Program-made: the position numbers and the translations under genes
Shown: positions 1,319 through 57,789 of the stretch, in pieces
How positions within the stretch are numbered: the first letter of the stretch is position 1
How the letters are laid out: every line of letters starts with the position of its first letter
From: Prostheceraeus crozeri
Taxonomy: Eukaryota > Platyhelminthes > Polycladida > Euryleptidae
Assembly: GCA_907163375.1 (NCBI GenBank)
Contig: CAJQUW010003174.1
Span: 124,001-188,000, forward strand
Length of the DNA stretch: 64,000 nucleotides
Reading direction: 5' to 3'
The notes under the pieces: model-generated
Databases searched by the model: none
The model's input: only the letters and a program-made list of their open reading frames with translations
Told to the model about the DNA's origin: nothing

Positions 1319-1807
1319 TTTTCAATTTACCACGACTACTGATAATTCACATACATGTCACCTTAATGGAATGTTTACATACACATGTAGGTTTTAGACT
1401 ATGAACTATGATTAGGAAGATAGGCCAAATATTTATTATGCAATCACATGTAGGCTTCTACATGTAGGTGCAGGCCATCCTATGCAGTAACATAGCCTAC
1501 ACTATACAAAGGTACAACTATGTTAGCCTATCGTGATTGAAGCGTTTTTCAAATGAAAATAAGAATAGCTTAATCATATAATGTACGAGTACCATAGGCC
1601 AAAATAGCATGCGCCTATATGCCTATGTGATTCGCATTTGTAGCGTATGGAATGCCGCTGTCTTTGAATACATGTGTAAATGTATTTGATAAGCTGCCTT
1701 AACCAAAATTATTTAAAAATAAATCTTTGTGTAATGATAGTTCGGTAAAGTAAGCTAAGCTGGCCCAGGCCTATTAGGCTGAAGTCAGTATTTTGTCGAT
1801 AAGTCAC
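1319..1807. other. anonymous AT-rich spacer
   Basis: No gene or element end seen. The word ACATGTAGG occurs several times between 1384 and 1470, but not as an ordered array. Confidence 0.5.
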
Positions 1808-4329
1808 CATTTTTTCTATCTCGCATAAATCGGTTGAGAGACTTCCTGATAATATGCCTATTTGAAATTCATCAGTCAATAATATCGTAATGAAAAGAAA
1901 ACCGTAAACTCATGACTAATTCTAAGGTAAAAAAGTGAGTTTTTCATTTTTTTTTTGATTTGATAACATCGCAAATCAGTCGAAGAGAGCTATTTTTTCT
2001 TTTCATTTCAACTTTCTGATGATCTGTCATTGGCTTAGAGAGCACTAGGCTGTTGGTGGCCCTAACTTATTGCACGCCCTGCTATTCCGCTTCAACCTCT
2101 TCCGTATTTTGTTGATTCTTGCAAATTAGGGAATACTTGATTAAAACCAAACTTGAAGTGTATTAAAACACCTCAAGTATAGTATCTGCCCACACAGCAT
2201 TATGTATTTAGCGTCAGTTTCTTCTCCACATTTACAGTCGCATTCTTCATGAGTGTCCTGGTTAGTAATTGCAAATAATCTCAAAATCCCTAAGGACTGA
2301 AGGAATACTATCTAGAGTGCGCGAGTCATCGAACTCACTTGAGCAATATTCTTCAATAATTCCTCATTAAATCACTGATTCTAAATTCCCCAGGCAAATT
2401 ACAAAGTAAATTTTCATTGCTTATGGCTTCTCAATCATGTCATTATCTGTCTGTAATAAACAATTCGTCAAATTTGTCTGAGAGCTATCCGCAAGGCAGT
2501 TCATGACATAAAATGAACGCCAATAGTCATGTAGCATTGTTATGAAAGCAGAAAGAAACGGAAGCTTTTAAAAAATAAACTTCAAGTCTCTTTGCCATCA
2601 AACATTGCAGAAATATGATATCTTATCATAGATGAATTTGTAATGTGAAAATGTGAAATCTTTGCAGCTTTGACGCGATGCCTAGCTAGAGGATTAATAT
2701 CCGCGATTAATTTCTATCGAATATCAAGGGATTAATTGGTAAAACCTTCTCTGAAGCTTTGAGATTCGGCGTCTGCATTCATATGTCGCACAGAGCTCTG
2801 CAAATAGATTGCAAGCCGTTTGAATGAAACTGTCAAACAAGATGCTCTGTTGTGGAAGTGATCTTTATTCAGCGGCTTACTCACCGATTTTGCTAGAGCA
2901 AATAATGCGGAAATGAAGCGTTTTCAGCGCATTTTATAGCATGTGATGATTATCCATGATGCATGACATCTAACAAAATGATGCTATTCTAAGCCCATTT
3001 TTCTTTTCATTCTGATCAAATCTGTCCCTCCAGAGTTATTAAAAATTCAGGTATGTAACAGGGAATCACAAGTCCGTGAGAACCAATGCTTGAAATCAAC
3101 AATTACAGAAATTCTCTCTCTATACTGCTCTGAGATGAATGAGCCGATTCAGAACGGCTTAAAAATAAAATTTCTAAGTGCGACAAAATTTTCCCCTAAA
3201 ATTCGAAATAAAGTATGAAAAATAATGTCACTCATCAAATAATTATTGTTTACTTTTGAATTTCTGAAGATTGGACCCTCATTAAGTTCAAAGACAGCGC
3301 TGCAGATGCGCTGTAGAGCTGATGAAAAAATATATATAGAAATGGAACCCTCAGAATCCTAAAGCAAAAAAATAGATCGTCATAAAAGTGAAACAAAACA
3401 TCTACACTGTAAACTGTAATCAGCCAAATAACAGACAATTGCAACAGACAACACGAGACAATGAACAACCAAAAGTGGCTGTTCAAAGCAGACACGATGA
3501 GACAATTATTCGCCAAAATATCACACAATTCTGTCTACTTTTCTAGAAGTATTGTCTCTCAAACTCAAAGTGCTTAAATATGATCAAACTATTCAACATC
3601 AGCTAATGGCAACTAGACAGTCCTAATCACATAGGTTCTAACTCTGCTCCACTCATTCACACTCGCATTATGAACAACTCTGATACTTTACAAGTCTGCT
3701 GTGTCAACGTCAACTTTAGGGAAGTATATACACCCTTAAAAGCTGTAAAAAACATTGTAAAAACAGAATTAAAAGATGTCATCAATACGTCAAATATCCA
3801 GACCTGTTATTGCCATGCCTCAAGGTGCATACAAAGAACCCTACTTATTTACAACATTGTATATTCTATAATTGAAAATTATCAAGGATACCATCCAATT
3901 TCAATAAAAGTGTATATATTAGTCATAAGTAGCATGATAGGCAGTAAACGCAATAATGTAAATTAGTTCGTGCGATGAGACAAAAATTGTCTGACAAGCA
4001 GGAAATTTGTCTGATAATACGCAGTAAGTGCCAAAATACTGATGTGACTCACAAATTGTCCGATAAGTGGCTGTTTGCAGTTTACAGTGTCCTAAAAATC
4101 TCCCATCAATGCTATTCGTAAACGGCATTTACAAATCTATCTTCCAATCATTGAGTACGCATGACAGGTAGAAATGAAACTCAGTATTAATTTAATCCCC
4201 AATGTGTATGCAGTTTCGATTTTATTTAATGAACTCGAGTTGAAGCCCATACCACATGTGAGAATGCAAATTTCGACAGTTTTGGAGAAATTACCTCAGA
4301 TTTGACTGATAATGATAGCAATACAGAAG
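1808..4329. repeat. 2.5-kb dispersed repeat, copy A (inverted copy at 33916-36418)
   Basis: Long stretches match the reverse complement of 33916-36418 at high identity, for example the block around 2040-2120 against 36110-36195. Homology ends abruptly at both sides. The ends carry no obvious TIR, so this may be a segmental duplication or a non-TIR element. A MITE at 3405-4089 sits at the same internal place in both copies and so predates the duplication. No coding region is recognisable. Confidence 0.8.
3405..4089 (+). mobile_element. MITE family M1, copy A (TIR CACTGTAAACTGTAA)
   Basis: The ends CACTGTAAACTGTAATCAGC and the inverted GCAGTTTACAGTG bound 685 bp. Closely related copies lie at 17555-18264 and 34154-34825. 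The word TTGTCTG/CAGACAA recurs near both ends. A 98-codon open frame at 3670-3966 is kept in all three copies, but resembles no family I know. No consistent target duplication is visible. Confidence 0.75.
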
Positions 4330-5147: not shown

Positions 5148-5732
5148 CACATGTGAATATTTTATGAATAAATGAAAAAAAATCCGAATGACTTTATCTT
5201 TTGCATGTGACATTGTCATAGTCATAGGATATCACACACTAAATTTTATAAAAATCAGTCGTGTAGTTTTCAAATATTTCACATTTATGTGCATTTCATA
5301 CTACTCACTAGGTTACGAGTAATTTTGACAGTCATAACGAAATCCGAATACGTATTTGAAACATAGTATCAACATAACTTGTTAAAAGGAGGATGCTCAT
5401 GAATTTGGAGAAAATTCTATCCTGTTATTGTCCTGCAAATTAGAATTTTACTCAAAATACTACTTATAAGTAGTATGATATGTTGAAGTCAGTATATTCC
5501 ATTAAATAAAATCCGAATTTCATTCCAAAAGTTTAGATTCACTTCTAATGTCATAATATAGCTTATATATTCATATAAAACGATTCTATCTTCATACTTT
5601 TGAGATATGTACGTACGTAACAATGCAAAATTATATATTTTGAGCAAAAAAATTAACAACTTTTTTGCCTATCAGAAATCAACGACAACCAAATCCGAAT
5701 AAAATTAAATTTCACATGTTGATTCTTCATTA
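5148..5732 (+). repeat. left TIR of RAG1L-1 with four AAATCCGAAT boxes
   Basis: This matches the reverse complement of 8115-8711 along its whole length. The 10-mer AAATCCGAAT occurs at 5180, 5340, 5509 and 5691, spaced 160, 169 and 182 bp. A perfect palindrome TACTACTTATAAGTAGTA lies between the second and third boxes. The boxes are plausible transposase-binding sites (inference). Confidence 0.85.
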
Positions 5733-5805
5733 CATATTCACATAAAATTCTAAGAAGAGAAAGCTGTGAGGAAACGTGCGTAATTAAAATCAATAATTGC
5801 TTTTA

Positions 5806-7700
5806 TCATTGTCTCTTAGAGCATCCGGGGAGCTTTTTGTATCTTTGCCATGTTTGAGCGAAGTGATGGTGAATCGACTCGATGGCCTGCTCACCAGTCC
5901 ATCCCAAGCCTGGATCAGGAAAATGGCACAGCTCTTCTAGAATTGAAAAAGATTCTTGAACATGATACAAAAGATGCGTCTTTAAAAAAGGTTCAATTCT
6001 CGCCTGACGTAAAGCTTCTTTGAATTCAATTATTGAATTCAAATAATCGTTCTTACGCAAGACACCGCCACAGTTGTCAATGACGTCTTTGAATCTACGC
6101 AATGCTGCACAGGCAGACGTTCGGGTAAAGCATTGAGGAAACTGGTCAATATTTCCCAAGATCATTCGAACACCGCGGCCTTCGAAAGCCTTACCATGAT
6201 AGGAGGATCGATGCGCCCCTAATCTGAACAATAGTCTATCAATTGTCGACTTCTCCTCTGCAGACAATTCAATTTCAATTTTGCTAAACAAATTCTGTAC
6301 TATTCCCAACATAACATGCAAAATCGGTGTTGCACATTTGTACAAATTCGGTGTCTCTGAGCTAAAGATTGAGGATGAAATGCAATTGAAGCATTCTTTT
6401 GCTTTTTTCATATCAGAATCATATTCAGATGAGGTTTTCGAGTTGTTCATCATGAAATTTGTCTGATTGTAGAACATTCTTCACCGAAAAGGAGCCATTA
6501 ACCCAAGTACAAAAGACACACGGATGCTTGGAACGACCAGTACTAATGCCGAACATCAATTGTAGACACTTGTTATCCGCTACGAGGGTAACCTTGAGTC
6601 GAGGGCTTTCAAAAAGTAAACGAAATGAATCAATGGAGAAAATGGTGAGCAAATTTTGTCTGGACTCCGGTGCTCCAACAACAGCGATAATCAATAACTA
6701 TGAAGGAGAATCCGAAAACTCAGGCTGATTTATGATTTGAACACCAACCTTGAGAAATTCTTGACCGTGGTCAACAGACATTTTTACTATCAAATCATTT
6801 TCGTCAAAACTGTCAGTCGTCCACTCTGCTATCAAACCAACAATATCGTTGCAAAAGACAAACGATAAATATCTCTTCACCATTTCATCACTTCCACTAT
6901 CACATTCAAACTCAATTTCATCAGTGCAACTAAAAAATCGACTAAGGCTTGCATCACGTGATGCATAAAATGTTGACATACTAGGAAACTTAACATCATT
7001 TCCAATAACTGAATTTAATCGCTTCAGGATATTGTTCGAAATACAGTTAGATAAACTTTTCAATCCGATCAAACTACGAATATCCATTCTCTTTTGTAAT
7101 TTAGAGTCATGGGTAAAGCGGAGTTTAAGTGGAGGGCCTCTTACCCGACTCTTTAATTGAGCTACAGATATTATGTAATGTTTGAGTAGGACCGCCGCAT
7201 TGATGCCGCTCGGGAAACTCTAGCTCAGTCGATGACAACTCTTTTACATATTTTGAGCAGGCCAGTTTGACTGGAGAACTAGTTTGTGCTGCTCTTTTTC
7301 TACCTGATTTTTGTTTTTTGGAAAATTGTCTCTGTTCATTCAAGGAGTGGCTTTTATGATCAATTACTAAACTGCAAGTATAGCAAGGTGCATCTGGCTT
7401 GCAATCATCAGATCGTATCATGCTAGTGCTTCTATAAATACCGAAGAAAGTATATTGCTTATTCGATCTGCAATTGGCCCCAACCTTGACTTGCCTGTCG
7501 TTCTTCAAATCTTTTAGGTTTGTGTAACAAGTCTTGCACAATACTCCCGGTGCACATTCCTCGTCGTCGTGAGATAAATCGATATTCCAAATTTGTTAAT
7601 AGTCCTCCACACAAGATTGCGATATATGAACCATTTTAGAAGATAATCTGCCAACAGCACCACCTCGACGGCAGATGCGACTCAGCACTATAGCATGTTC
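5806..7700 (-). pseudogene. RAG1-like transposase, decayed (RAG1L-1)
   Basis: Homologous to the 669-codon frame of RAG1L-2. From the N terminus: an SRIC motif (first zinc cysteine changed to S), then ECAPGVLCKTC matching the second cysteine pair, a further CYTC-HKSH zinc-like motif, then the core. First catalytic D lies in SVDHGQ, second D in VADNK exactly 19 residues before the PCVFC zinc pair, followed by ILHVML, EGRGVRMIL, an H-x3-H, and GEQAIESIHHHF with the third catalytic acid. Lesions: in-frame stop near 7597, frameshift near 7135, stop at 6698-6700, frameshift near 6470. The C-terminal end also looks truncated. The start is uncertain because no in-frame ATG is visible near 7695. Clearly non-functional, and diverged from RAG1L-2 and RAG1L-3, so a distinct lineage. 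Confidence 0.8.
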
Positions 7701-8114
7701 GTCATGCCTTGTAGACCGATGTGTTAAAAATGTTCAGCTTACAACACGCGCGCAAAGAAAGCAACTTGGGATTCTGTTGTTAAGGACAACAGTCTCCACC
7801 CTGACATGAACAACCAATACAGTGTGGTACTGACTCAACTGACTCTACCGTAGCATGCGGGCTGCAAACGCGTTTCTACCATAGCGTGCGATCTCCATGC
7901 GCTAACATCAAACAAAATTTTACTCAAAGCTTTGTCTTCATAGAAATATGAATCAACCGCTGGAATGTGTAATAGAGTTCCTTCGATTCGCAGAAATCTA
8001 TTTTTCCTCAGCTAAAGATGTACTCGAAAACTAATTATTACAGTAAGATGATACAGTCGATTATGTTGGAAGTACACGATAGTTTCTTCTAAAACTTTTT
8101 GGACATGTTAACAA

Positions 8115-8711
8115 TATAATGAAGAATCAACATGTGAAATCTAATTTTATTCGGATTTGGTTATCATTGATTTCTGATAGGCAAAAAAAATTGTTAATTT
8201 TTTTGTTCAAAATATTTAATTTTGCATTGTTACGTACATATCTCAAAAGTATGAAGATAGAATCGTTTTATATGAATATACATGTATAAGCTATATTATG
8301 ACATTAGAAGTGAATCTAAACTTTTGGAATGAAATTCGGATTTTTATTTAATGGAATATACTGACTTCAACATAGCATACTACTTATAAGTAGCATTTTG
8401 AGTAAATTTATAATTCTAATTTGCAGGGCAATAACAGGATAGAATTTTCTCCAAATTCATGAGTATCCTCCTTTTAACAAGTTATGTTGATACTATGTTT
8501 CAAATACGTATTCGGATTTCGTTATGACTGTCAAAATTACTCGTAACCTAGTGAGTAGTATGAAATGCACATAAATGTGAAATATTTGAATACTACACGA
8601 CTGATTTTTATAAAATTTAGTGTGTGATATCCTACGACTATGACAATGTCACATGCAAAAGATAAAGTCATTCGGATTTTTTTTCATTTATTCGTAAAAT
8701 ATTCACATGTG
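8115..8711 (-). repeat. right TIR of RAG1L-1
   Basis: Inverted copy of 5148-5732. The reverse box ATTCGGATTT occurs at 8149, 8334, 8510 and 8670, mirroring the left arm (spacings 185, 176, 160). It ends in TATTCACATGTG. Confidence 0.85.
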
Positions 8712-10834: not shown

Positions 10835-11784
10835 TTAAGAATGAAAATTTGAGAAACAGTCAATATGAAGAAGGACACCACAAGTGGAGCACTTTCGTTT
10901 TGTGTTCTTTTTGCATACTTTACAACGTACTTGTTTATCAGATGAGATAATGATGTGAAAATTGCTTGTTCTTTTAGTTTGAGAAGGGGTCCTGCTGGGT
11001 CCTGGATGTTGCAGCTTACTCGGTGTCTTTGCCATGAGTGATCGAACAATCGCCCTGTAAGACAAATGTAGTTTTTACTATTGGTCATTTCACGTTTATC
11101 TAGTTATGTTGATCCCTATTAATTAAACCAGGCCTTTTATAGAAGAAAATCCTTCCAGGCTTATACATGTATATGTTATCAACGTGTGACTATTCACCCC
11201 CTACGTAGTCACAACACATGTAGGCCTAAATGTATTGTTTGTTATTCTATATATTCTTACCTCCGAAATTGAAGGTGGCTCATTTCTCCTTTCAAGCTAC
11301 GATGAAGTCGCCATGCAGCGACGACGGCCATATTCAAAAAGTTGGCAAAAATATTCCACCACCATTTCTTATTTCTTAGCTTAGGCCGATAATCGCTCAA
11401 GAATCGATCAAGAAGATCCACTCCGCCCATATATTGATTGTAATTATGAATCAAATGAGGGATAGGCACTGGTATGCGTTTTCTATCGGCTTTACTCCAA
11501 CGACTACCACTGTGAACGGGATTCACAGATTCGAAATTGCTGATGGCAACTACTGGACGACTGTCGTTCCACTGGCAAACAAAAACTTCACCGTCTGAAA
11601 ATTCAATGTGACTACCTCGAGAAAGCTTCTTCATTGCCGCCTTAGACATAATTGGGCATTTTTCAATTCGAGATTCCATTACAATTCCTGTACAACTCAA
11701 TCCGTCTTCTCTAAATTGTCTGAACGTTTTCGTTGAACAAAAGAATCTGTCCTGTCTGTAAGACGAGGGTGAAATTGGTTCCAA
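10835..11784 (-). pseudogene. piggyBac transposase C-terminal half, with intron
   Basis: Exon at 11261-11784 carries the C-terminal part of the RNase H-like region with YNQYMGGVDLLD, which holds the third catalytic aspartate, and the KKWWW segment. A GT-AG intron (11055-11260; donor GGAG|GTAAGA, acceptor TTACAG|GG) joins it in frame to the exon at 10835-11054, which carries CKVCKKN and a following cysteine cluster, the C-terminal cysteine-rich domain that binds the TIR. The reading QFRR|AIVRSLM across the junction fits the family. Sequence 5' of 11784 lacks the first two catalytic aspartates, so it is defective. Confidence 0.8.
11055..11260 (-). other. intron in piggyBac a transposase
   Basis: Minus strand donor GTAAGAATA and acceptor TTTGTCTTACAG give a 206-bp intron. 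Splicing restores a single frame between two segments that are both typical of piggyBac. Confidence 0.7.
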
Positions 11785-11820
11785 TAAAGTAGGTTGCTAC
11801 TGTGCTCGTGTTAGTAAAGT

Positions 11821-17554: not shown

Positions 17555-18264
17555 CACTGTAAACTGTAAACAGCCACTTATCGGACAATTTGTGAGCCGC
17601 ATCAGTATTTTGGCACTTACTGCGTATTATCAGACAAATTTCCTGCTTGTCAGACAATTTTTGTCTCATCGCACGAACTAATTTACATTATTGCGTTTAT
17701 TGCCTATCATACTACTTATGACTAATATATACACTTTTATTGAAATTGGATGGCATCCTTGATAATTTTCAATTATAGAACATACAATGTTGTAAATAAG
17801 TAGGGTTCTTTGTATACACCTTGAGGCATGGCAATAACAGGTCTGGATATTAGACGTATTGATGACATCTTTTAATTCTGTTTTTACAATGTTTTTTACA
17901 GCTTTTAAGGGTGTATATACTTCCCTAAAGTTGACATTGACACTGCGGACTTGTAAAGTATCAGAGTTGTTCATAATGCGAGTGTGAATGAGTGGAGCAG
18001 AGTTAGAACCTATGTGATTAGGACTGACTAGTTGCCATTAGCTGATGTTGAATAGTTTGATCATATTTAAGCACTTTGAGTTTGAGAGACAATAGTTCTA
18101 GAAAAGTAGACAGAATTGTGTGATATTTTGGCGAATAATTGTCTCATCTTGTCTGCTCTGAACAGCCACTTTTGGTTGTTCATTGTCTCATGTTGTCTGT
18201 TGCAATTGTCTGATCATTTTGGCTGTTATTTTGTCTGTTATTTGGCTGATTACAGTTTACAGTG
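17555..18264 (-). mobile_element. MITE family M1, copy B
   Basis: TIRs CACTGTAAACTGTAAACAGC and the inverted GATTACAGTTTACAGTG bound 710 bp that matches 3405-4089 and 34154-34825. It sits between the two oppositely oriented R2 copies. The 98-codon frame (complement 17678-17974) is intact here too. Confidence 0.75.
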
Positions 18265-20256: not shown

Positions 20257-20261
20257 ATTTG
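20257..20261. other. left 5-bp target-site duplication ATTTG
   Basis: ATTTG directly precedes CACACCC and is repeated at 24296-24300 directly after GGGTGTG. Five-bp duplications with CAC ends are diagnostic of the Transib/RAG superfamily. Confidence 0.85.
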
Positions 20262-20760
20262 CACACCCGTCGGCTGGGTCGATCAAGCGGTCAAAAATGC
20301 GAGCCCTTAGCGACCACTTTTTTGACATCTACTATCATATCTAAGAACTACTACATAGGTCTCTCAAATCATCTATTGGCTATTCGCCTGCAGGACCAAT
20401 TTTTAAAAAAATTCAAATTTCAAATATTAAATTCCATTATGCAATTTTTTGATTTCTCTGTATCTGGTTGCAAATGATTTGTACTGTCATATTTTGATAA
20501 AGTCTTATCTAGAAATACCCAAAGATTATGCAGAAACACATTCTAACAAATTTAGACCTACTTAGCCGTCAAAATTCAAATATTTTTGAAAAAAATTCAA
20601 ATTTTAAATTTGAATTTCATGATATATATTTTTTCATCTCTATAACTGCATAGATACGATTTCTATTGCCATTATTTGATAATTATATATTCATAATTGT
20701 TTCAGATTATTCAGAAGCACATTTAAATGTACTAATAAAGAGAAATTTAACGATCAAAAT
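20262..20760 (+). repeat. left TIR of RAG1L-2
   Basis: It matches the reverse complement of 23796-24295. Two related segments of about 170-190 bp follow one another inside it: each has an AATTCAAATTT-rich start, a TTTTTTSAT-TCTCT segment, an ATTTGATAA-like word and an AGATTATKCAGAARCACATT block. Confidence 0.9.
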
Positions 20761-20959
20761 ACTTTTTAATATTAGTAAAAATAGGTTTTATTTACGAACC
20801 CCGATATCCCTGACGAGCCCTCATTCGCAGTACCAAAAAATATATGCATTTCAATTTTGAGTCACTTATATTAACTAATACATTGACATCAACTTATAAA
20901 ATGTCATTAGCAATATCGCAAATGAAACAGTCATGAATATAAAGTTTGAAGTCATCCAT

Positions 20960-22971
20960 TTACAAGTGGCGTCCATTATAGCGCACAACACATTCCAAAA
21001 GACTGTTGCCGTATTTTGGATTTGATTCTCCAACATTGCTGCTACTGCAATACATTGCCGAGAAGTCCGAATGAACGGACTCAGAGGCCTGCTCACTATA
21101 TGGTCCAAGAGCTGAATGTTTTAGTTTGCAGAACTGTATGAGATGCTTCGTTACAATGTGGACGCTGGTATTGACACTAATGGGCAATTCGCTGTAACTT
21201 TTTTCAAATGCTTTAATAGAACAATTGAAGTTTGGGTCCAATTCTTGTCCGAAACAAGTGGTACGAACACGATTGAACTCTTGAAGTAATTGCTTGTAGG
21301 GAACAAGTTCCAGACAACCATTTGACTCGCATATTGCTTGGAGCATATCAGCTTTCATCAGCAACAAGCGGCACATGTTGCCTGTAAATTCGCCGGAATG
21401 CATTTTTGGGCGAGTTATTCCTACGCGACAAACCCACTGCCGACAAACTTCATCAGAACGTGGGGATAATGACTCCATTTGGCGAAAAACTTTGTTGAAT
21501 ACACGCAACATTAAGTGTAATTCCGGAGGTGCGAGAAGGCTGATTATCATTTCATGATCTTCTCCATTGATTAATGGGGGATTCGTTGTGCTCTGGCATG
21601 ATCTTGCAATTCCAGTATCACGATACCTATTTGCCTCGGTTTTAACTGATCCTATTGTGCGAAGAGGATAGCTTCCTGAAGAAGGAGTCCCAAATTTTAT
21701 TTTCGGACAACTGCAGAAAGCACATGGGTATGAACTCCCGTGTACTTGTATCCCAGCAACAATATTAGCCAATTTGAGATCAACTGCGTAGGTGTATTTG
21801 AAATCCAGATTAGCTACTTTGAGTAAGTCCAATAATAACCGTACATTTGTGTAACTTTCTTTTATATCAGGAACAATTGCCAGTATTATAATTCGTTTGA
21901 CACTCGAATCCAAAAATCCTGTCGCAGAAGACGATGAAACATTGTCAATTGAGGTACGTATGGACATACAAATCTTGAAATAGCCTCCACCACCGTCGAG
22001 TCCTAATTTCAATTGAAGGTTAGTGTGGCTGCTGTCAATCTGTCGATCATTGCAGATGTGCTGGATTAATTGGACTAAGTCATTACAAAACACAACAGGC
22101 TTAGATATCTCATCAAATACTTGGAATTCTAAAGAGAACAAGTCACTGAGAGCACTATCTCGACTTCGAAAATAATCATCACTGTTTGACTCTAACACTT
22201 TTACCAAGAGTACTTGACAGGAACGGCATAACCGTGTGAATCATGGCGGAGTTCGAAGCTCCCAGGGACAATTGTAAATTGCTCAGATTTTTTGCAGCAA
22301 TGCTTCTTGGTGATTGATCATTTATAGCAAGGTTGATTCGGTTTGGCCCTCTTGTTTCGAGATCTAAATGCTGATGAAGATTTGGTTCATGATGTGGCTC
22401 AGAAGAAGATGATTCTCTCCTATGTGAAATCATACTGCTGGCTACAACATCCTGCGTACGTTTATCAGAATCTTTGTACATATCTATTATATTTTGTCGA
22501 AGAGTGCTGACTGTACATTTATGAGTGATACCACGGCCAACCGGAAATTTGCATTGAACGCATATAACTTGCACACTATTTCTTGTATCATGAGACATCA
22601 TTGAATCAGGGGACTTGATAGTAGGACGACCTTTTTTTTCTTGCAATTTGACATATCAAGCATTCACAAAATGTATAGCCAACTGATCGCGTGTTTATTT
22701 TAAAAGCTGGTTTCACAAGGCTAAAATCATAAACTTCCGGCAAGATACCCCGTTCCTTCACACCACTTTCAATTTTGAGAAGATTTGAGCGACAATTCGA
22801 GCAAATGGCAGCAGGTAGGCAGTCATCGTTCGTTCTATAGTTTTCTATAAAGAAAGCTCGGATTCTTCGTAAAACGGCATCCGTGATTGGACAGTCTCCT
22901 TTTTCCATACATATAAGGCATACTCTATTATCTGTTTTCTTCATGACTTCTAGCTTTGTTTGTATGTGCAT
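20960..22971 (-). CDS. RAG1-like transposase of RAG1L-2 (two single-base frameshifts)
   Basis: About 669 codons from ATG at 22971. The N-terminal region has CLIC (18-21), DDCLPAAICSNC (cysteines 51, 57, 60) and CECLIC followed by ARKKGRP (102-116). This order parallels the RAG1 N-terminal region, where cysteine pairs precede a basic patch. Next comes CVQC with a later HKC (137-152). The core holds D325 in GLDGGGG, D397 in AVDLKLAN, the zinc pair PCAFC (416, 419) 19 residues after D397, ELHLML, GEFTGNMCRLLL, an H-x4-H, and E630 in EQASESVHSDF. In RAG1, as I recall it, D708 also precedes its zinc pair by 19 residues and D708-E962 spans 254, against 233 here. Frameshifts lie in A runs at 22632-22639 (A8) and near 22202 (A4). 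Removing one A in each joins the three frames. Predicted role: DDE recombinase acting on the TIRs in the nucleus. Confidence 0.88.
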
Positions 22972-23795
22972 GTGCCATCACAAAAGATAACACGCGATAA
23001 GAATCAAGTCGTAATGTCGTATCGTTAGAATATTGTCACTGTTAATTGTGATCAAGCGCACCATTAGCTGCTGATAAACAGTTTGGAAGCTCGCGCATTA
23101 AAATCAATTATGTTGACACGGCGTTCATGAATATAATTCATCCTGTTTTATACCATTATCAGACAGACAGATATTCTTGACAGAGCAGATACTGTAGTGC
23201 ATAGGGGTCAGATTATTAGATATCTATGTTAGGAGACGACACTAGCATGGACATCTGAACTCTATGCTGCAGCGCGAGTGAATAGTGATCAAATCAATGA
23301 ATTACTGCGGTGTCAGTGAGAAGGAGAGACAAGAACTTCAGGCGTTCGGTTTTCATTGCCGCTGAACACTCAGCGGCAATGACAATCTACACAGTTTGTC
23401 AAACAACAACAAGATCTTTAATGTTATATCCGAAGCATCTTTTCGTATATGAGTTCCCATGAAGGAAATGGATATTGTGATAATCACGGTACAAGAAAAA
23501 ATACGTCTGCAGTGCATAAAGTCATGTAGATAACAAATTTATCTATAATGTCATAAAATTCGCATAGGTTTGTTAACCAGAATATCATTATGTCGGTAAC
23601 TTATGAACCGCCACGTTGCATATATGGCTAACAATATCATCATATGATTGTTTGATATATTGTCGTTGCTATCAATGTAGTACATTAATGTACATAACAG
23701 ATGTGATATAAGCCTACGCTTCAATATTGCACTCACAAAAACAGAGATAATGGGGAAAATATTTTGGAATTCATTTTTCTAATTAGAAATTTCGA
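22972..23795. other. non-coding interior of RAG1L-2 upstream of the transposase
   Basis: Between the start codon and the right TIR no substantial frame is found. It presumably holds the promoter. A perfect hairpin CATTGCCGCTGAACACTCAG with its arm CTCAGCGGCAATG lies near 23357. Confidence 0.5.
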
Positions 23796-24295
23796 ATTTT
23801 GATCGTTAAATTTCTCTTTATTAGTACATTTAAATGTGCTTCTGAATAATCTGAAACAACTATGAATACATAATTATCAAATAATGGCAATAGAAATCGT
23901 ATCTATGCAGTTATAGAGATGAAAAAATATATATCATGAAATTCAAATTTAAAATTTGAATTTTTTTCAAAAATATTTGAATTTTGACGGCTAAGTAGGT
24001 CTAAATTTGTTAGAATGTGTTTCTGCATAATCTTTGGGTATTTCTAGATAAGATTTTATCAAAATATGACAGTACAAATCATTTGCAACCAGATACAGAG
24101 AAATCAAAAAATTGTATAATGGAATTTAATATTTGAAATTTGAATTTTTTTAAAAATTGGTCCTGCAGGCGAATAGCCAATAGATGATTTGAGAGACCTA
24201 TGTAGTAGTTCTTAGATATGATAGTAGATGTCAAAAAAAGTGGTCGCTAAGGGCTCGCATTTTTGACCGCTTGATCGACCCAGCCGACGGGTGTG
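23796..24295 (-). repeat. right TIR of RAG1L-2
   Basis: Inverted copy of 20262-20760 ending CCGACGGGTGTG. Confidence 0.9.
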
Positions 24296-24300
24296 ATTTG
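24296..24300. other. right 5-bp target-site duplication ATTTG
   Basis: Identical to 20257-20261. Confidence 0.85.
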
Positions 24301-25080: not shown

Positions 25081-25223
25081 GCTGTTAAAGTCCCAAGTTC
25101 AAAAACCATATCAAAATTGGCACATTTTGAATATAAATGTGCATAAATATAACGTAGATATGATACAGAAGCATTATATCAATAATCAAGCACTTTTAAA
25201 AATGACCTTTAATACTGACCTTA

Positions 25224-26126
25224 CAGTGCGCGACAGCAAGTTGGAAACTTGGCATAAATCTACGGACACGTACATTTTTCAACACCTTCTAATTTTTTTT
25301 TGCTATTAGGAAATATCGACAAATTTATAATCATCTGAAAGAGAATTTTCAGATCTATCATTTGAATGTTGTTGATTTTGGTGTTTTTTTTAATTAATTG
25401 TTTTTGAAACTGGTGGTTCCTAGAGGCCCATAAACCCGAAAGCCCAACTTTTCCTTGACTTGTTTTAACAAGCGCATAAATCAATTTGAAACATTCTCCT
25501 TGTGATATTCAAAACCGTCACAAGATTGGCTTTCAGAAATATATAGTTTGAATGTGTTTTCTCGAAGTTTATAGGCAATATTTTGAAAGTAGTATAGATA
25601 GAAAATGTGGCGATTTTTTCATTTTCAGAATGTGTTGCGATAATAACAGAAATAACGCTGTTAACTAACTGGTGGCATTTATTTACCTCAAAACTAGTGT
25701 TTTCTGCCTTTGTTGGGTAAATTTAAGGCCCTTAGAAGAAATATTCTGAAAATGAAAAAATCGCCACATTTTCTATGCTACTTTTAAAATATTGCCTATA
25801 AACTTCGAGAAAACACATTCAAACTATATATTTTCTGAGAGCCAATCTTGTGACGGTTTTGAATATCACAAGGAGAATGTTTCAAATTGATTTATGTGCT
25901 TGTCAAAACAAGTCAAAGAAAATTTGGGTTTCGGGCTTATGGGCCTCTAGGAACCACCAATTTTAAAAACAATTAATTCAACAACATTCAAATGATAGAT
26001 CCGAAAATTCTCTTTCAGATGATTATAAATTTGTCGATATTTCCTAATAGTAAACAATTTTTAGGTGTTGGAAAAAATACGTGTCCGTAGATTTATGCTA
26101 AGTTTCCAACTTCCTGTCGCGCACTG
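25224..26126. mobile_element. foldback / long-TIR mariner-type MITE
   Basis: TA flanks both ends (25222-25223, 26127-26128). The ends are CAGTGCGCGACAG and the inverted CTGTCGCGCACTG. The two arms, about 25224-25632 and 25743-26126, are reverse complements along roughly 400 bp with only a 110-bp spacer, so a transcript would form a long hairpin. No coding potential. Confidence 0.85.
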
Positions 26127-26128
26127 TA

Positions 26129-30899: not shown

Positions 30900-33635
30900 G
30901 CCATTAACCGGCAACTGTAGAAGCATTCGGACTTACTCGATACAAAGTTGGAATCTGCGGTAATTTGATGTACTAAATAATATATTTTCGTCCCAAAGAT
31001 GACTTCACTTACGGTGATCGATTTTCAGACTGATCTAAAAATATATCGCTGCCGGAGAGCGAAGAATTATCACAATATACATATTTTTGGACTGCACGAC
31101 TTCTTATGGAAGTTTTCATGGACTTTTAATCTAAATAACATAATACATTTTTGTGAGTCACTGCACTACTATTTTGTACTATATAAGTAGTATTTGAATA
31201 ACATTATTTGAATATCAAAAAGCTACTTTATGACCTCAAAACGTATGATCTTCTTGATATTTGTATGTCATTGATAAAAGGGGAAAACTGCACCTTGCAG
31301 AAAAAAGCCGTGAGTGATGCGAAATGATGTGAAAGATATACTCGTTTTTTTACAATATTTTGATTAAAGAAGTTATACGAGCAGAGCAATATATATATAT
31401 AGGGCATTACATAATAGCTAGCGTCTTTCACACTTATAACAGTTTAGAGAAGCGTACCTCTTACAGAAGTGAGATGCCCTTTTTCAAAGCTCTTACTCTT
31501 GAACAAGCTGTGGCACTCATCGAAGATTTAGATGACGAGGAATATGATGCTGTAGATGTAGCTGTACTGCCACCTGAGAACAATGCTGATAGCGACGTAG
31601 ACGAAGTCAACGAAGATGATGTTGGAAATATCGCAGAGGTCTGCGATGTACCCGGAACACTAGAAATTCGAACATCCCCAACCAATGATGAACCAAACGA
31701 AACAATGGAAAACGATGAAGAAGACGAGCTTTGTCGACCAGAGTGGATCGAAGCTGCAGATCCTATTTGGCAAAAATCTAAAAGTCTATACACCCAACTT
31801 TCTTCCGAAGAAAATCATCATGATAGGAAGATGACAGCAAAGAAGGAAGAACTAGATGGATTATCTCCAATTGAACTTTTCGAGAAAATGTTTGACAACC
31901 GCTGCGTGGATTTACTGGTAACAGAGACAAATCGATATGCAACTCAACGAAATGAAACGAAATTTCATGTGAAAGCAGCTGAAATCAAGGCTTTTGTTGG
32001 AATTATACTTTTTACAGGGTATCATCGATTACCATCACAAGAGCATTATTGGTCTTTAGATCCCGATCTCCAAGTACCGCTAGCTTGCGAATGCATGCCT
32101 GTCAAAGCGTTTCTGGCAATCAAACGATTCATTCATTGCAATGATAATGACCTTCTCATAGATCCAATCAATAAAGCAGATAGATCATTCAAAATTAAAC
32201 CATTATTTGATCTTCTCAACGAAAATTTCAAGAATTTCGGCTTTTTCAGCAAATATCTGTCAATTGATGAAATGATCATAAAATATTTTGGGCACCATGA
32301 ACTAAAGCAGTTTATACGCGGAAAGCCGATCCGTTTTGGTTATAAGCTGTGGGCCTTGTGTAGCGATAATGGTTACGTCTACGACTTCTTCCTTTACCAA
32401 GGAAAGGAAACAGATGCCAAACTGTGCAAGATTCCAATGGGCGGAAGGGTCGTTTTGCAACTTGCGTCAAAAATCGATCATCCTCAAGGGAAAGAACTTT
32501 TCTTTGACAATCTATTCACCAGTCCGTCTCTTTTGGTCACGCTTACAAAAATGGGCTTCAGGGCCAGTGGGACAATACACGCTAACCGAACAAAGAGGGC
32601 CCCTTCTCCTCAAATAAGGAGATGAAGCAAAGAGGATCAACTCATCAGACGTTTGACAAAGCCAACCAACTTCTCTTTATTAAGTGGAGCGATAATAACT
32701 TTGTTCACATAGCCACAAATTACTCCTCAGTCGAGCCGAAGGTCAAGGTTGCACGTTACAGTCGAACAGAAAAGAAAAAACTTGATATTGAAATGCCCCA
32801 CGCAATTGCCGAGTACAATCGTCATATGGGAGGTGTTGTTCATCACGATTGGCTGGCATCTCATTATGCAATTGGCATACGAAGCAAGAAATGGTACTTC
32901 CCTCTATTGATGCGAAGTATACAGATGGCCCTTGTGAACGCATCGATCATTCACAGAGAAATAGTGGACAAGAAGGAGCAGCTTTCACTTCTTGAATTTA
33001 CGAGAAATGTTGCCGTATCGTATATGAAATTGACTTATGGGCAGCCATCTGTGCTTTCTAGACATCGGGCAAGTCACATCACGGGAGTCGCAAGCTCAAC
33101 TATTGATTTTCGATTTGATGGTATCGATCATCATATACTGATGCGTTCCAATCAACGGCATTGTCAGGGACAGAACTGTAGATCTCGACCATTGTCATAC
33201 TGTGGAAAATGTGACATAACTCTCTGCAAGCGTTGCTTTATTCCCTACCATAGACGATAACATAATGTGCATTTAAATCACTGCAAATAATTACTCTTTA
33301 GAGCCAGACTAAAATAATTCAACGCTGTATAACTATACGGTCTGGTCATTTATGCAATAAAAAATAAACACAGGATGAAAAAATGACGAAATTGCATATT
33401 TTGATATTCAGTGTGCTGTAGATAAGAAATTATAAAAAAATATAGAAAAAATCAAATAATTAATCACCTGATGCCTATGATTAGAGGGTTGAATCGCATT
33501 GTTTAGATCCATATTCTGTTTTATAACGCTATATTAAAAGAAATATACCAAAATTGTATCTTAAATATTGAATACATAACGAATACCTGCTCCTATGTAC
33601 AATGATCTATTTATATGCCGCTGCCGGTTAATGGG
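30900..33635 (+). mobile_element. piggyBac element c (nearly complete)
   Basis: Right TIR TGCCGGTTAATGGG is followed by TTAA (33636-33639). Left TIR begins gCCATTAACCGGCA after tcaa (30896-30899), one substitution from TTAA. The interior carries an almost full transposase gene on the plus strand. Its TIRs differ from those of elements a, b and d, so it is a separate family. Confidence 0.88.
31474..33260 (+). pseudogene. piggyBac transposase, one frameshift, altered third catalytic site
   Basis: About 595 codons from ATG at 31474. Order: acidic N terminus with PPENNAD and NEDD; first catalytic D in LSIDEMI; then KPIRFGYKLW; second D in LFFDNLFTS; a one-base frameshift near 32598; IAEYNRHMGG; KKWYFPLL; and a C-terminal cysteine-rich domain starting RHCQGQNC with YCGKCDITLCKRC. 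The usual GGVD that carries the third aspartate reads GGVV here, while the second D of this region (HHDW) is kept. The frameshift and this substitution predict an inactive protein. Otherwise it is the most intact piggyBac gene in the window. Confidence 0.85.
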
Positions 33636-33915
33636 TTAATCAATTTTCATCACTAAATTTATGTTATATTTCTTGAATAATAATGTGGGCGGACACACGG
33701 CCATCTTTTGAAGCTAATCCTGATCATTGTCTTCGATTTTGTTATTTTGCTCTTCTGTGGCAGATGTGGTTCGTGATATTATCACTTAAGAAAATACTCT
33801 TTGAGGCTGAGCATAGAAGAAATAGCAACCCGTCGAAATGCTAGTTTAGTAAATAAACATAGCCTCTGTAAGGTCGTCATGACACGGAGGATTTGTAAAA
33901 TATTGTTTTTCTTTC

Positions 33916-36418
33916 TGCATTCCTATCATGATCAGTGAAATCTGAGGCAATTTCTCCAAAACTGTAGAAATTTGCATTCTCACATGTGGTACTGGGTCTC
34001 AAACTCGAGTTCATTAAATAAAATCGAAACTGCATACACATTGGGGATTAAATTAATACTGAGTTTCATTTCTACCTGCCATGCGTACTCCATGATTGGA
34101 AGATAGATTTGTAAATGCCGTTTACGGATAGCATTGATGGGAGATTTTTAGGACACTGTAAACTGTAAACAGCCACTTATCGGACAATTTGTGAGCCGCA
34201 TCTGTATTTTGGTACTTACTGCGTATTGTCAGACAAATTTCCTGCTTGTCAGACAATTTTTGTCTCATCGCACGAACTAATTTACATTATTGCGTTTACT
34301 GCCTATCATGCTACTTATGACTAATATATACACTTTTATTGAAATTGGATGGTATCTTTGATAATTTTCAATTATAGAATATACAAAGTTGTAAATAAGT
34401 AGGGTTCTTTGTATGCACCTTGAGGCATGGCAATAACAGGTCTGGATATTTGACGTATTGATGCCATCTTTTAATTCTGTTTTTACAATGTTTTTTACAG
34501 CTTTTAAGGGTGTATATACTTCCCTAAAGTTGACGTTGACACAGCAGACTTGTAAAGTATCAGAGTTGTTCATAATGCGAGTGTGAATGAGTGGAGCAGA
34601 GTTAGAACCTATGTGATTAGGAGTGACTAGTTGCCATTAGCTGATGTTGAATAGTTTGATCATATTTAAGCACTTTGAGTTTGAGAGACAATACTTCTAG
34701 AAAAGTAGACAGAATTGTGTGATATTTTGGCGAATAATTGTCTCATCGTGTCTGCTTTGAACAGCCACTTTTGGTTGTTCATTGTCTCATGATGTCTGTT
34801 ATTTGGCTGATTACAGTTTACAGTGTAGATGTTTTGTTTCACTTTTATGACGATATATTTTTTTGCTTTAGGATTCTGAGGGTTCCATTTCTATATATAT
34901 ATTTTCATCAGCTCTACAGCGCATCTGCAGCGCTGTCTTTGAACTTAATGAGGGCCCAACCTTCAGAAATTCAAAAGTAAACAATAATTATTTGATGAGT
35001 GACATTATTTTTCATACTTGATTTTGAATTTTAGGGGAAAATTTTGTCGCACTTTGAAATTTTATTTTTAAGCCGTTCTGAATCGGCTCAGTCATCTCAG
35101 AGCAGTATAGAGAGAGAATTTCTGTAATTGTTGATTTCAAGCATTGGTTCTCACGGACTTGTGATTCCCTGTTACATACCTGAATTTTTAATAACTCTGG
35201 AGGGACAGATTTGATCAGAATGAAAAGAAAAATGGGCTTAGAATAGCATCATTTTGTTAGATGTCATGCATCATGGATAATCATCACATGCTATAAAATG
35301 CGCTGAAAACGCTTCATTTCCGCATTATTTGCTCTAGCAAAATCGGTGAGTAAGCCGCTGAATAAAGATCACTTCCACAACAGAGCATCTTGTTTGACAG
35401 TTTCATTCAACGGCTTGCAATCTATTTGCAGAGCTCTGTGCGACATATGAATGCAGACGCCGAATCTCAAAGCTTCAGAGAAGGTTTTACCAATTAATCC
35501 CTTGATATTCGATAGAAATTAATCGCGGATATCATTCCTCTAGCTAGGCATCGCGTCAAAGCTGCAAAGATTTCACATTTTCACATTACAAATTCATCTA
35601 TGATAAGATATCATTTTGCTGCAATGTTTGATGGCAAAGAGACTTGAAATTTATTTTTTAAAAGCTTCCGTTTCTTTCTGCTTTCATAACAATGCTACAT
35701 GACTATTGGCGTTCATTTTATGTCATGAACTGCCTTGAGGATAGCTCTCAGACAAATTTGACGAATTGTTTATTACAAACAGATAATGACATGATTGAGA
35801 AGCCATAAGCAATGAAAATTTACTTTGTATTTTGCCTGGGGAATTTGGAATCAGTGATTTAATGAGGAATTATTGAAGAATATTGCTCAAGTGAGTTCGA
35901 TGACTCGCGCACTGTAGATAGTATTCCTTCAGTCCTTAGGGATTTTGAGATTATTTGCAATTACTAACCAGGACACTCATGAAGAATGCGACTGTAAATG
36001 TGGAGAAGAAACTAACGCTAAATACATAATGCTGTGTGGGCAGATACTATACTTGAGGTGTTTTAATACACTTCAAGTTTGGTTTTAATCAAGTATTCCC
36101 TAATTTGCAAGAATCAACAAAATACGGAAGAGGTTGAAGCGGAATAGCAGGGCGTGCAATAAGTTAGGGCCACCAACAGCCTAGTGCTCTCTAAGCCAAT
36201 GACAGATCATCAAAAAGTTGAAATGAAAAGAAAAAATAGCTCTCTTCGACTGATTTGCGATGTTATCAAATCAAAAAATGAAAAACTCACTTTTTTACCT
36301 TAGAATTAGTCATGAGTTTACGGTTTTCTTTTCATTACGATATTATTGACTGATGAATTTCAAATAGGCATATTATCAGGAAGTCTCTCAACCGATTTAT
36401 GCGAGATAGAAAAAATGG
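33916..36418. repeat. 2.5-kb dispersed repeat, copy C (inverted partner of 1808-4329)
   Basis: Reverse complement of 1808-4329 with small indels (2503 against 2522 bp). It contains MITE M1 copy C at the matching position. Outside these limits the flanks are unrelated. Confidence 0.8.
34154..34825 (-). mobile_element. MITE family M1, copy C
   Basis: TIRs CACTGTAAACTGTAAACAGC and the inverted ATTACAGTTTACAGTG. It is orthologous by duplication to copy A and slightly shorter near its right end. The 98-codon frame is intact at complement 34277-34573. Confidence 0.75.
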
Positions 36419-36925: not shown

Positions 36926-37374
36926 TTGATTGTTCATGTCAGCCCCTGTTGCTATCACGGCGGCGGTTCCTTTACAGCTAACGACTCGCGGTCACTTCTT
37001 AGGAAAGTTGATATTTTGGCGACCAACTGTCCACTTGGATGTCTTCCGTTTGTTAAAGCATTTCGGAGTTTGAATAGTGTCGTGGCCAGCTGTTTCTCTT
37101 TCACGCTCGAGGACAAAATCCGTGAGTTCCGTGACGACTACCTCTCGGCCTTACTGTGACACCTAAGATTCACGCAATTTTTCACTACGTGAGAGAATTT
37201 TGCCTCTCAAAACATGAAGGACTGGGAAAGTACTGCGAACAAAGCTCAGAATCCGTTCACAGGAACTTCAACGATTTCTGGCAAAATTACAAAATGAAAG
37301 ACTGTGACAAATTAAATAACAGAAACAGACTTCTCAGAGCCGTTTTGGCTTACAGTGGACGTCATCACATATGA
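36926..37374 (+). pseudogene. RAG1-like transposase, C-terminal part of core (RAG1L-3)
   Basis: Two frames joined by a one-base shift near 37153. The first has GGGSFTANDSRSLL, matching GEFTGNMCRLLL of RAG1L-2. The second has an H-x3-H, GLGKYCEQSSESVHRNF with the third catalytic glutamate, and a final AYSGRHH matching YNGRHL of RAG1L-2. The N-terminal zinc region and both aspartates are missing. It is clearly distinct in sequence from RAG1L-1 and RAG1L-2, so a third family. Non-functional. Confidence 0.75.
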
Positions 37375-54956: not shown

Positions 54957-57789
54957 TGACTTAGTAGTTGTCATTCTCTTTAGTATTGAATTTACTGCGA
55001 CAGACCTTTGTTGTCAGTCTACACAATATCTGAAATCATTTGACAGACTGTGTGACATCCTTGTTAATGCATACTTGTCAATGATGAGTGTAAAACAGGC
55101 CTACAGAAATCCATTTGATTTTGATTCGATTTTTATTTGATTCCATTTAAAATCGACAGATTTTGACCCCGTTTTACCCGTGAGATTGTGAGATCATCTA
55201 TGATTTTGATGTCCCTCTGATCCAATATTTCCTAGCATTGATTTTGGCACATTCTGGTTCAAATGGTAGTATCAGGTTTTGCCAACTTAGTCATATTGTT
55301 CAAAATTGTAATTCAAAATTTGAGTTAGGACTACCCTCTTTCTAAAAAGTGATATCTTGAGCAGCCTATCTTTTGTAAATTGATGGCAAATTCTGGCAAA
55401 TTCTGAGTCATATGGTAGATTCTGGAGTGAAGAGCAAGGCATTGATAGACCTCTTGGAACTTTGCTATTGTGATCGGATGCTTCTCCATCCCATGCATGT
55501 GATCAGTCTGTCTTCTTAGACACTACTATTCATTCGCTTTCAATCTTCATGGTGATTTTACATATTAGTAGCTTCAATATATAATCTGGGAGACTCTTGC
55601 TTGCTGTGATGTTGTTCTTTATCATTTTGAAGGAGTGATTTAAGACAGCTATGATAAGCACTATGTTTTTACTTTTTAATGAAATATGATAGACTTGCAT
55701 CCACTATTTATTTGCTGAGCAGTGGTGAAAATATGGAAATCGCTGAATTTGCGAATTCCAACATTTCAATATAAAACAGGTACATGTAAATGTGATTACG
55801 AATCGGGCACGAGGCGAATGTGCATTTTCTGAGTATAACTTTGATATATTGGTTGTCTGAAGACTAGGAAAGACAAAAAACGATGTTATGAGTGTCTGAT
55901 ATCTTTATGATCCCTGTGATGTATTATGCGCGAAGGTACAAGTATTAATCAAATAAAATCAATAGTCCCTTTTCAAACATTTTCAACATTCTTATGATCT
56001 ATTCAATTAGCGCCGAAACCTCTTGTCTCGCAAAAATTGTGCGAGAGAGAGTTGTTGGCAGGATATCATGGATTTCCTGTCAGTTTTAGTCAATTTTTAA
56101 TGTAGATAAAATTTCCTAAATTTGGTAGGAAAGGATTTATCGTAGATGAGAGTTGAAGGTTTCAAAACTTTACCTCTAAAAACAGCATTCTCATGAAGAT
56201 GTGGACAGCAAAAATGCACCGACAATGTTGATTGATAACTGATGTCCGTATTTTCAACAATTGTGCAATTCAGTTATTACGGTTAATAAGTAGTTGTTTT
56301 TTAACCTTCCCCCTCCTCCCTACCAAAAATTTCATCTAGCTCCTGAACGAAAGAGGATACGAACTCAAAATTCTGGATATCTTATTTTCTACGTCCTCCA
56401 CAGCTTTCCATCAAATTTGAATAATATCGGCTGCATACTTTCTTTCGTCACATTGAGATTTCAAAAATTTCAATTTGCGACAGATTTGTCGAATTTTGTA
56501 CTATTTTCGGTTTGAATGTTTTCAGGTTTGTGAATTTTTCAGGCCTTTTATAATATTAAAACTATTCGCATTTATAAAAGAATGTGTTCTGGCGTCAATT
56601 CGAACAGACAATGATAATTCCCTTGTAGATTCTATTTAGATTTCGACGTTTTGGAATCAAAATTTAAAATTGGGAAATTTCATCACCATTGTTCAATTTA
56701 AAAATCATCTTTTGACTTCCAAAGTGACATTGAACATCAAAACAATGATGACATTTAGACTCGTCATCATGGGAGCCTTCACTTTGTTTATTTTGTCTTG
56801 ATTTTCGACCTTTTGTTTCGGAAATAAGCAGGAGGCCATCCCCCAGCAGGGCGCGTTCGTCAAAACACCCAAGTGGGCCGAGGGTCAAATTACACTAGTG
56901 AGTAAAAAATACGTCAGAAGTCTTGGAAAAAATGTAGTGCACTCAAAATCTTCTTAATACTATTCTCAATTTTAAGTTGTTCATGTTACTTTGTAAGCTA
57001 CTATCAAGTTACTTAATGCTATCTTTTCTTGTGCGGTTTTTAATATTCGACCTTGCGTGATTTAAGTTGTACCATAACGGTTTTTATGTGCAAGGTTTAA
57101 AACCGTCTAACATCCGCCTAGGATTAGGCAGAGTAAGCTCAATAACTGGCAACTAAGTGAAAGTTTTTATATTTTTGAGAGTAGCTCAAAATATGCTTGC
57201 GTGACTGCGTGTCTGTAGCAAACAAGCCTCATTCTCAGCATATAGAGAACTCGGCTTGAGCATCATTGTACTGCACAACTACATGCACTCTTCCTTATCT
57301 GCGGAAAGTTATAGAAACTATCTTTGCACTCTTCTAGTAGCAGAATTGCCGAGCATTCCACAATAATCAGTATTTTTCGTTTGATTCTGTATGAGACTAC
57401 AAGATACGCGCTTTCATGAAAAGATCAAGTGGGACAGAGTAAAACATTCTTCAGTATTCAGTGAGGAGTCTTTGATTCATATCCAATTTCCTGCAAGGTA
57501 ATTTCTCTAATGGTACAAACTTATTAAGCATAACACAGTTCACTGTTCTCATTCATGAGGCGATTAAACGTTATGAATTCTCTGTGATTGTATTTTCAGT
57601 GTCAATTACTTGAAGTACAAAAAGTATGATAGAGAACACCGAGACTTGCTATCAGAGCTTGCACCAGATCAAGATACGCGGATCTGGGAACGATCTGAAT
57701 CTAGATCCGTCTTAAATTAAAGGTAATAAGGAACATTTGGTTTTGTTTGAAATTTTTTCTGATGTGGATTTATCCCTACTCTCTCGCGT
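54957..57789. other. anonymous stretch with a diverged R2 copy
   Basis: 55680-55850 is similar to 17030-17200 (repeat R2). The remainder is AT-rich with no gene recognised. Confidence 0.45.

Follow-up and report, generated by a model that had tools for sequence, protein, structure and literature searches.

The closest described systems to the element reported here are found in the CMCT clade of cut-and-paste DNA transposons (EnSpm, Mirage, Chapaev, Transib and their kin). According to the excerpts of the cited papers on which all literature statements below draw, this clade has 2C and 3H motifs, mostly CA..TG ends and target-site duplications of 2-5 bp (PMC12730594). Chapaev elements are described with duplications of generally 3-4 bp, invariable CAC/GTG ends, a DDE core and the motifs C(2)C, LH and H(4)H, and Chapaev3 with a 3-bp TWA duplication, insertion occurring between A and T (PMC4079192). 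Transib elements are described with a 5-bp duplication and a CAC end and as lacking an N-terminal non-core region (PMC7204232), canonical Transib having no domain beyond the core; the Chapa domain is a complex N-terminal zinc finger of Chapaev, Chapaev3, TransibSU and RAG1, and in the broad usage of Kapitonov and Koonin Chapaev is itself a clade of the Transib superfamily (PMC4411706). Unclassified animal transposases form a supported clade sister to Chapaev plus Mirage, and one of its members, CNEST, has 2-bp TA duplications (PMC12810828). The locus compared with these systems lies in a 64,000-nucleotide stretch of the polyclad flatworm Prostheceraeus crozeri (contig CAJQUW010003174.1, positions 124,001 to 188,000; hereafter the window) and contains one copy of an element of 4034 bp (20262-24295). 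The element is likely a DNA transposon of cut-and-paste type that belongs to the CMCT clade and is of Chapaev-like kind, and it is best read as Chapaev-like in its protein and Transib-like in the length of its duplication.

Direct matching of both flanks showed the target-site duplication ATTTG on the left (20257-20261) and on the right (24296-24300). When duplication lengths of 2-11 were tried with CACACCC...GGGTGTG as the ends, length 5 alone matched; the chance of one given 5-bp match is about 1/1024 by arithmetic, assuming equal base frequencies. The left terminal inverted repeat (TIR; 20262-20760, plus strand, 499 nt) begins with CACACCC and contains two diverged sub-repeats with a spacing of 184 nt, and the right TIR (23796-24295, minus strand, 500 nt) terminates in GGGTGTG. 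The two were identical in 495 of 500 aligned columns, the remainder being 4 substitutions and 1 gap. The first 16 TIR bases, with up to 3 mismatches allowed, occurred in the window at these two sites only (mean in 100 shuffles, 0.01). An initial annotation, made by a model from the letters of the window, had reported 5-bp ATTTG duplications and CAC-starting TIRs of about 500 bp, and both agree with these measurements, as do its coordinates, which were exact; its age label, "young", has TIR identity as its sole basis.

The single gene named by that annotation was also found, as one gene on the minus strand spread over three frames. The N-terminal part (22606-22977, first frame) contains CxxC, CxxC and CxCxxC motifs (family profile, 1.7e-30), the middle part (22179-22655, second frame) contains GRP, CxxC...HxC and the start of the RAG1-like core (9.1e-25), and the catalytic part (20960-22240, third frame) runs for 426 amino acids (aa) from stop to stop, with a predicted local distance difference test score (pLDDT) of 93.3 (2.3e-149). 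P0001, an unbroken relative of 680 aa, has 66% identity to the catalytic part, and relative to it the focal gene shifts frame at three places, one near 22930 and the others within 22624-22643 and 22194-22201. The first of these changes need affect only the first residues, because the downstream frame has its own ATG codons just upstream; the second includes an A8 run on the coding strand (22632-22639, minus strand). The stretches shown aligned with P0001 contained zero stops, and D82, D154 and E387 were present in them. The frame changes could be decay or assembly errors, and to judge from the aligned frames any breakage or misassembly is confined to a few points in a copy without severe erosion. 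As the gene is out of frame as assembled, the element would be mobile only with the enzyme of a frame-intact copy, or if the changes were assembly errors. The ends, TIRs, duplication and gene are all present, but the descriptions "complete" and "nearly intact" have to be qualified in view of the three frame changes. No RAG2-like frame was found in the element, where the longest stop-to-stop frame besides the three gene frames was 85 aa (21300-21557, antisense).

A database search returned 89 relatives with E values down to 3.2e-182, and 43 of them were 640-720 aa long. None of the 89 carried a precomputed Pfam domain, and the sole source name was "hypothetical protein". A family profile built from 44 relatives, without window sequence, recovered all three pieces of the focal gene and two further relatives in the window. 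The first of these, an element at 5148-8711, is more distant but of the same transposase family, and its gene is divided over four frames of the minus strand (5806-7595); its TIRs of about 590 nt were 94.7% identical over 603 columns and have CACATGTG ends, and a duplication of 2-11 bp was sought and not found. The second is a C-terminal fragment on the plus strand (36926-37371) in two frames covering 146 profile positions, and no TIRs were found for it by the window-wide repeat scan, the only search made for them. A frame at 56667-56894 reached E = 0.61 in the window-wide profile search and was excluded from the count. A database protein of 783 aa (P0098) was matched by the family profile as a distant relative (1.4e-7), with DELHL and HxxxxH; by eye it lacks the N-terminal cysteine region. 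Weak DUF1280 matches below the cut-off were common to P0098, P0001 and P0053, and these may be chance or a hint that DUF1280 is transposase-derived.

The Asp82 codon (21995-21997) aligned via P0001 with RAG1 D600, the Asp154 codon (21779-21781) with RAG1 D708 and the Glu387 codon (21080-21082) with RAG1 E962, all three on the minus strand, Glu383 being equally conserved. The CxxC, LH and HxxxxH motifs lined up residue by residue with RAG1 C727/C730, H795 and H937/H942. When the focal protein was aligned with 60 of its 89 relatives (61 sequences in all), D82, D154, C173, C176 and H242 were conserved in 61/61, H361, E383 and E387 in 60/61 and H366 in 59/61, so that C(2)C and H(3-4)H between the second D and the E were kept in 59-61 of 61 sequences.

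Both the fold and the active site predicted for the transposase are those of RAG1/Transib. All 48 PDB structures matched by the predicted structure at E<=1e-3 were RAG1, amphioxus RAGL or HzTransib, and in this predicted fold, with the aligned D-D-E, CxxC, LH and HxxxxH, the initial label "RAG1-like" was correct. Structural identity of the focal protein was 10-12% to RAG1, 11% to BbRAGL and 12-14% to HzTransib; that of P0001 was 12-14%, 12% and 12-16%, respectively. Searched against solved structures, a 61-row family profile matched RAG1 only at 0.0081 and HzTransib was absent from its matches at E<=10. A search with the 626-aa RAG1 core reached amphioxus RAG1L at 3.2e-80 and HzTransib at 0.0029, and with a 265-aa mouse RAG1 piece HzTransib was not matched at E<=10; HzTransib is an imperfect yardstick, as the result varies with the RAG1 query. 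No protein marked Transib was among the best 120 of 277 proteins matched by the RAG1 core, those 120 resembling vertebrate RAG1. The Pfam RAG1 models matched 0 of 46 family sequences (44 relatives and 2 window pieces) at E<=0.1; the positive control, a vertebrate RAG1 from shark (P0176), gave E = 0. There was no RING match in the focal family. When the focal pieces were scanned against Pfam and NCBIfam, there were either no matches or matches at the level of chance, the weak matches of relatives to DUF1280, Hema_HEFG, Radical_SAM and others were treated as noise, and phmmer with the 426-aa core against solved structures gave two chance matches only, so that a profile was required.

In P0001, about 230 residues stand N-terminal to the core, and a counterpart is encoded in the focal element. 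The cysteines of this region (C19, C22, C58, C61, C102, C104 and C107 in P0001 numbering) were present in 40 to 44 of 44 relatives, and their motifs follow the same order as three CxxC motifs of RAG1; the region is probably zinc-binding. The GRP motif was present in 27/44 relatives and is for that reason not diagnostic. The profile match to the RAG1 N-terminus was marginal (score 16.77, the highest of 40 controls being 16.72), as was that with mouse RAG1 alone (18.55 against 17.71 as the best among 60 controls). A solved structure of the RAG1 N-terminus, 21wb, corresponds to RAG1 residues 88-223. The zf-AD model matched 11/46 sequences at E<=0.1 (best 3e-4), and the match was below the cut-off in the three members whose bit scores were examined. 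Weak matches were also obtained to the solved Drosophila chain LD30467p (E 0.27 and 0.59), which we take to be a ZAD domain. Both sets of weak matches would fit a cysteine-rich N-terminus.

Compared with published descriptions, the focal element resembles Chapaev of the CMC group in its CAC/GTG termini, its DDE core with C(2)C, LH and H(4)H, and its single transposase gene, which encodes a cysteine-rich N-terminal region. It also has the features by which the CMCT clade is described (DDE with C(2)C and H(3-4)H, CAC...GTG ends, a 5-bp duplication), and it is filed at the level of that clade because the likeness to Chapaev rests on descriptions, not on Chapaev sequences. CNEST, EnSpm, Plavaka, ESTA and other CMCT lineages, also by description, likewise have mostly CA..TG ends and 2C and 3H motifs but differ in their 2-3 bp duplications where a length is given, which is not the case for Lanisha and Mirage. 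Some points weigh against the Chapaev-like reading. The focal duplication is 5 bp, from one copy at one site, whereas that of Chapaev is generally 3-4 bp and that of Chapaev3 the 3-bp TWA, and no statement of a 5-bp Chapaev duplication was found in the excerpts of the literature searched. A 5-bp duplication together with a CAC end is what is described for Transib. C(2)C, LH and H(4)H are also present in RAG1 and so are not diagnostic against Transib. Published identity between Transib and RAG1/RAG1L is itself under 22% (PMC7204232), which weakens the argument from low identity. Because the duplication length was tested and differed, the element is not claimed as a member of Chapaev.

The same length would suit a separate, unnamed CMCT lineage that is neither Chapaev nor Transib and has a 5-bp trait of its own, an explanation that overlaps the preferred one and is given a minor share of the probability. 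It draws on the supported unclassified animal clade sister to Chapaev and Mirage (PMC12810828), though CNEST in that clade has 2-bp TA, and on the 89 relatives without a domain or a name. Against it, the N-terminal cysteine-rich region and the CAC/GTG ends match the Chapaev descriptions, and a 5-bp duplication seen once carries little weight.

A Transib element proper, or a ProtoRAG relative with RAG1L only, is less probable still and would be rather unlikely. The "Transib/ProtoRAG-type" of the initial annotation stands as regards the 5-bp duplication, the CAC ends and the predicted fold and active site; membership of the group proper is not well supported. The 10-14% structural identity to RAG1 and HzTransib is low, as against a mean of 26.22% published for RAG1L core and Transib combined (PMC9435367), but published and structural identities are different measures, so the low values speak against Transib but do not settle the matter. 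The RAG1 core reaches RAG1L far more strongly than the family profile reaches RAG1, HzTransib is missing from the matches of that profile, and the Pfam RAG1 models match no family member. The N-terminal region encoded before the core differs from Transib as described, and the absence of a RAG2-like frame, a RING and a RAG1 Pfam match, with TIRs of 499-500 nt, differs from RAGL/ProtoRAG and vertebrate RAG1. From the sequence comparisons and the predicted structure, the element is thus probably not Transib or ProtoRAG proper; the label "Transib" could hold in the wide sense that places Chapaev within the Transib superfamily (PMC4411706). Another DDE superfamily (hAT, P or EnSpm/CACTA), with likeness to RAG1 through the shared RNase H-type fold only, is very improbable, since the best RAG1 and HzTransib chains score about 9-10 Z units higher than the P element and align over 64-104 more residues, CxxC, LH and HxxxxH align with RAG1 residue by residue, and fungal EnSpm duplications are 3 bp (PMC12730594), EnSpm being compared by description and not by fold or tree. 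Fold scores were the ground for rejecting the P element and hAT; the structure rows shown contained no EnSpm, Mirage or Chapaev, which has no bearing on these three.

For the Chapaev-like transposon favoured here, the ends, the duplication, the gene, the predicted fold and the conserved catalytic residues are observed, and from them we infer binding, nick-hairpin chemistry and repair by analogy. A transposase dimer would bind the CAC-ended TIRs and nick exactly at CAC, and the flanking DNA would be turned into hairpins, as RAG1 and Transib do; the freed ends would then be joined to the target at a 5-bp stagger, and repair would leave ATTTG duplicated. Like transposases, RAG cleaves DNA through a nick followed by a hairpin (PMC7204232), and the solved structures of HzTransib include a hairpin-forming complex.

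An A5 run, possibly a nonamer-like site, lies at positions 32-36 of the left TIR (20293-20297, plus strand) and is mirrored at 24260-24264. The A-run begins at TIR position 32 in the focal element and at position 28 in the element at 5148-8711. An A-tract after CAC recalls the heptamer-spacer-nonamer of recombination signals, which is only a lead; A5 starting at offset 28-34 was found at 37/1404 CAC sites in the window, and as this offset range was fixed after the A-tract had been noticed, the lead is a weak one.

Searches for relatives gave 188 pattern matches in genome_contigs and 37 in viral_contigs, with 0 confirmed in either, and the first 19 TIR bases gave 0 matches in viral_contigs, so that no second copy of the element was found; records near the window's own genome may be omitted from these collections. 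The joined flanks of the focal element matched only themselves within the window, and no empty site was found.

Elsewhere in the window, frames matching Pfam DDE_Tnp_1_7, which we take to be a piggyBac-type transposase, were present at 31333-33260 (two frames; E 7e-55 and 8.6e-13) and 11257-11796 (1.2e-23). A segment of about 2.5 kb occurs twice in inverted orientation (1807-4328 and 33913-36418, pieces 92-100% identical), with a third, partial occurrence at 17555-18212. An inverted-repeat structure at 25222-26128, with arms 86-97% complementary and outer ends ACAGTGCGCGACAG / CTGTCGCGCACTGT, overlaps the end of a 140-aa open frame and is possibly a small non-autonomous element.

A doubtful but broader proposal is that there is a lineage uniting traits previously regarded as separate: a Chapaev-type transposase and N-terminal zinc region, Transib/RAG-like 5-bp duplications and, in the TIRs, a CAC heptamer with an A-tract 20-24 bases inward, resembling a symmetric 23-type signal. 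If this were general, both the N-terminal zinc region and a RAG-like geometry of ends and target would predate the split of Chapaev and Transib, and RAG1 would have inherited its N-terminus rather than gaining it later. Duplication length and the N-terminal zinc region are two traits by which the relatives of RAG1 are sorted. An element combining a Chapaev-like protein and a 5-bp duplication would demonstrate that a 5-bp stagger also occurs outside Transib and RAG, and would serve as an outgroup for the origin of the RAG1 N-terminal region. The value of this one copy with its broken gene lies in the lead it gives into a family of 89 relatives.
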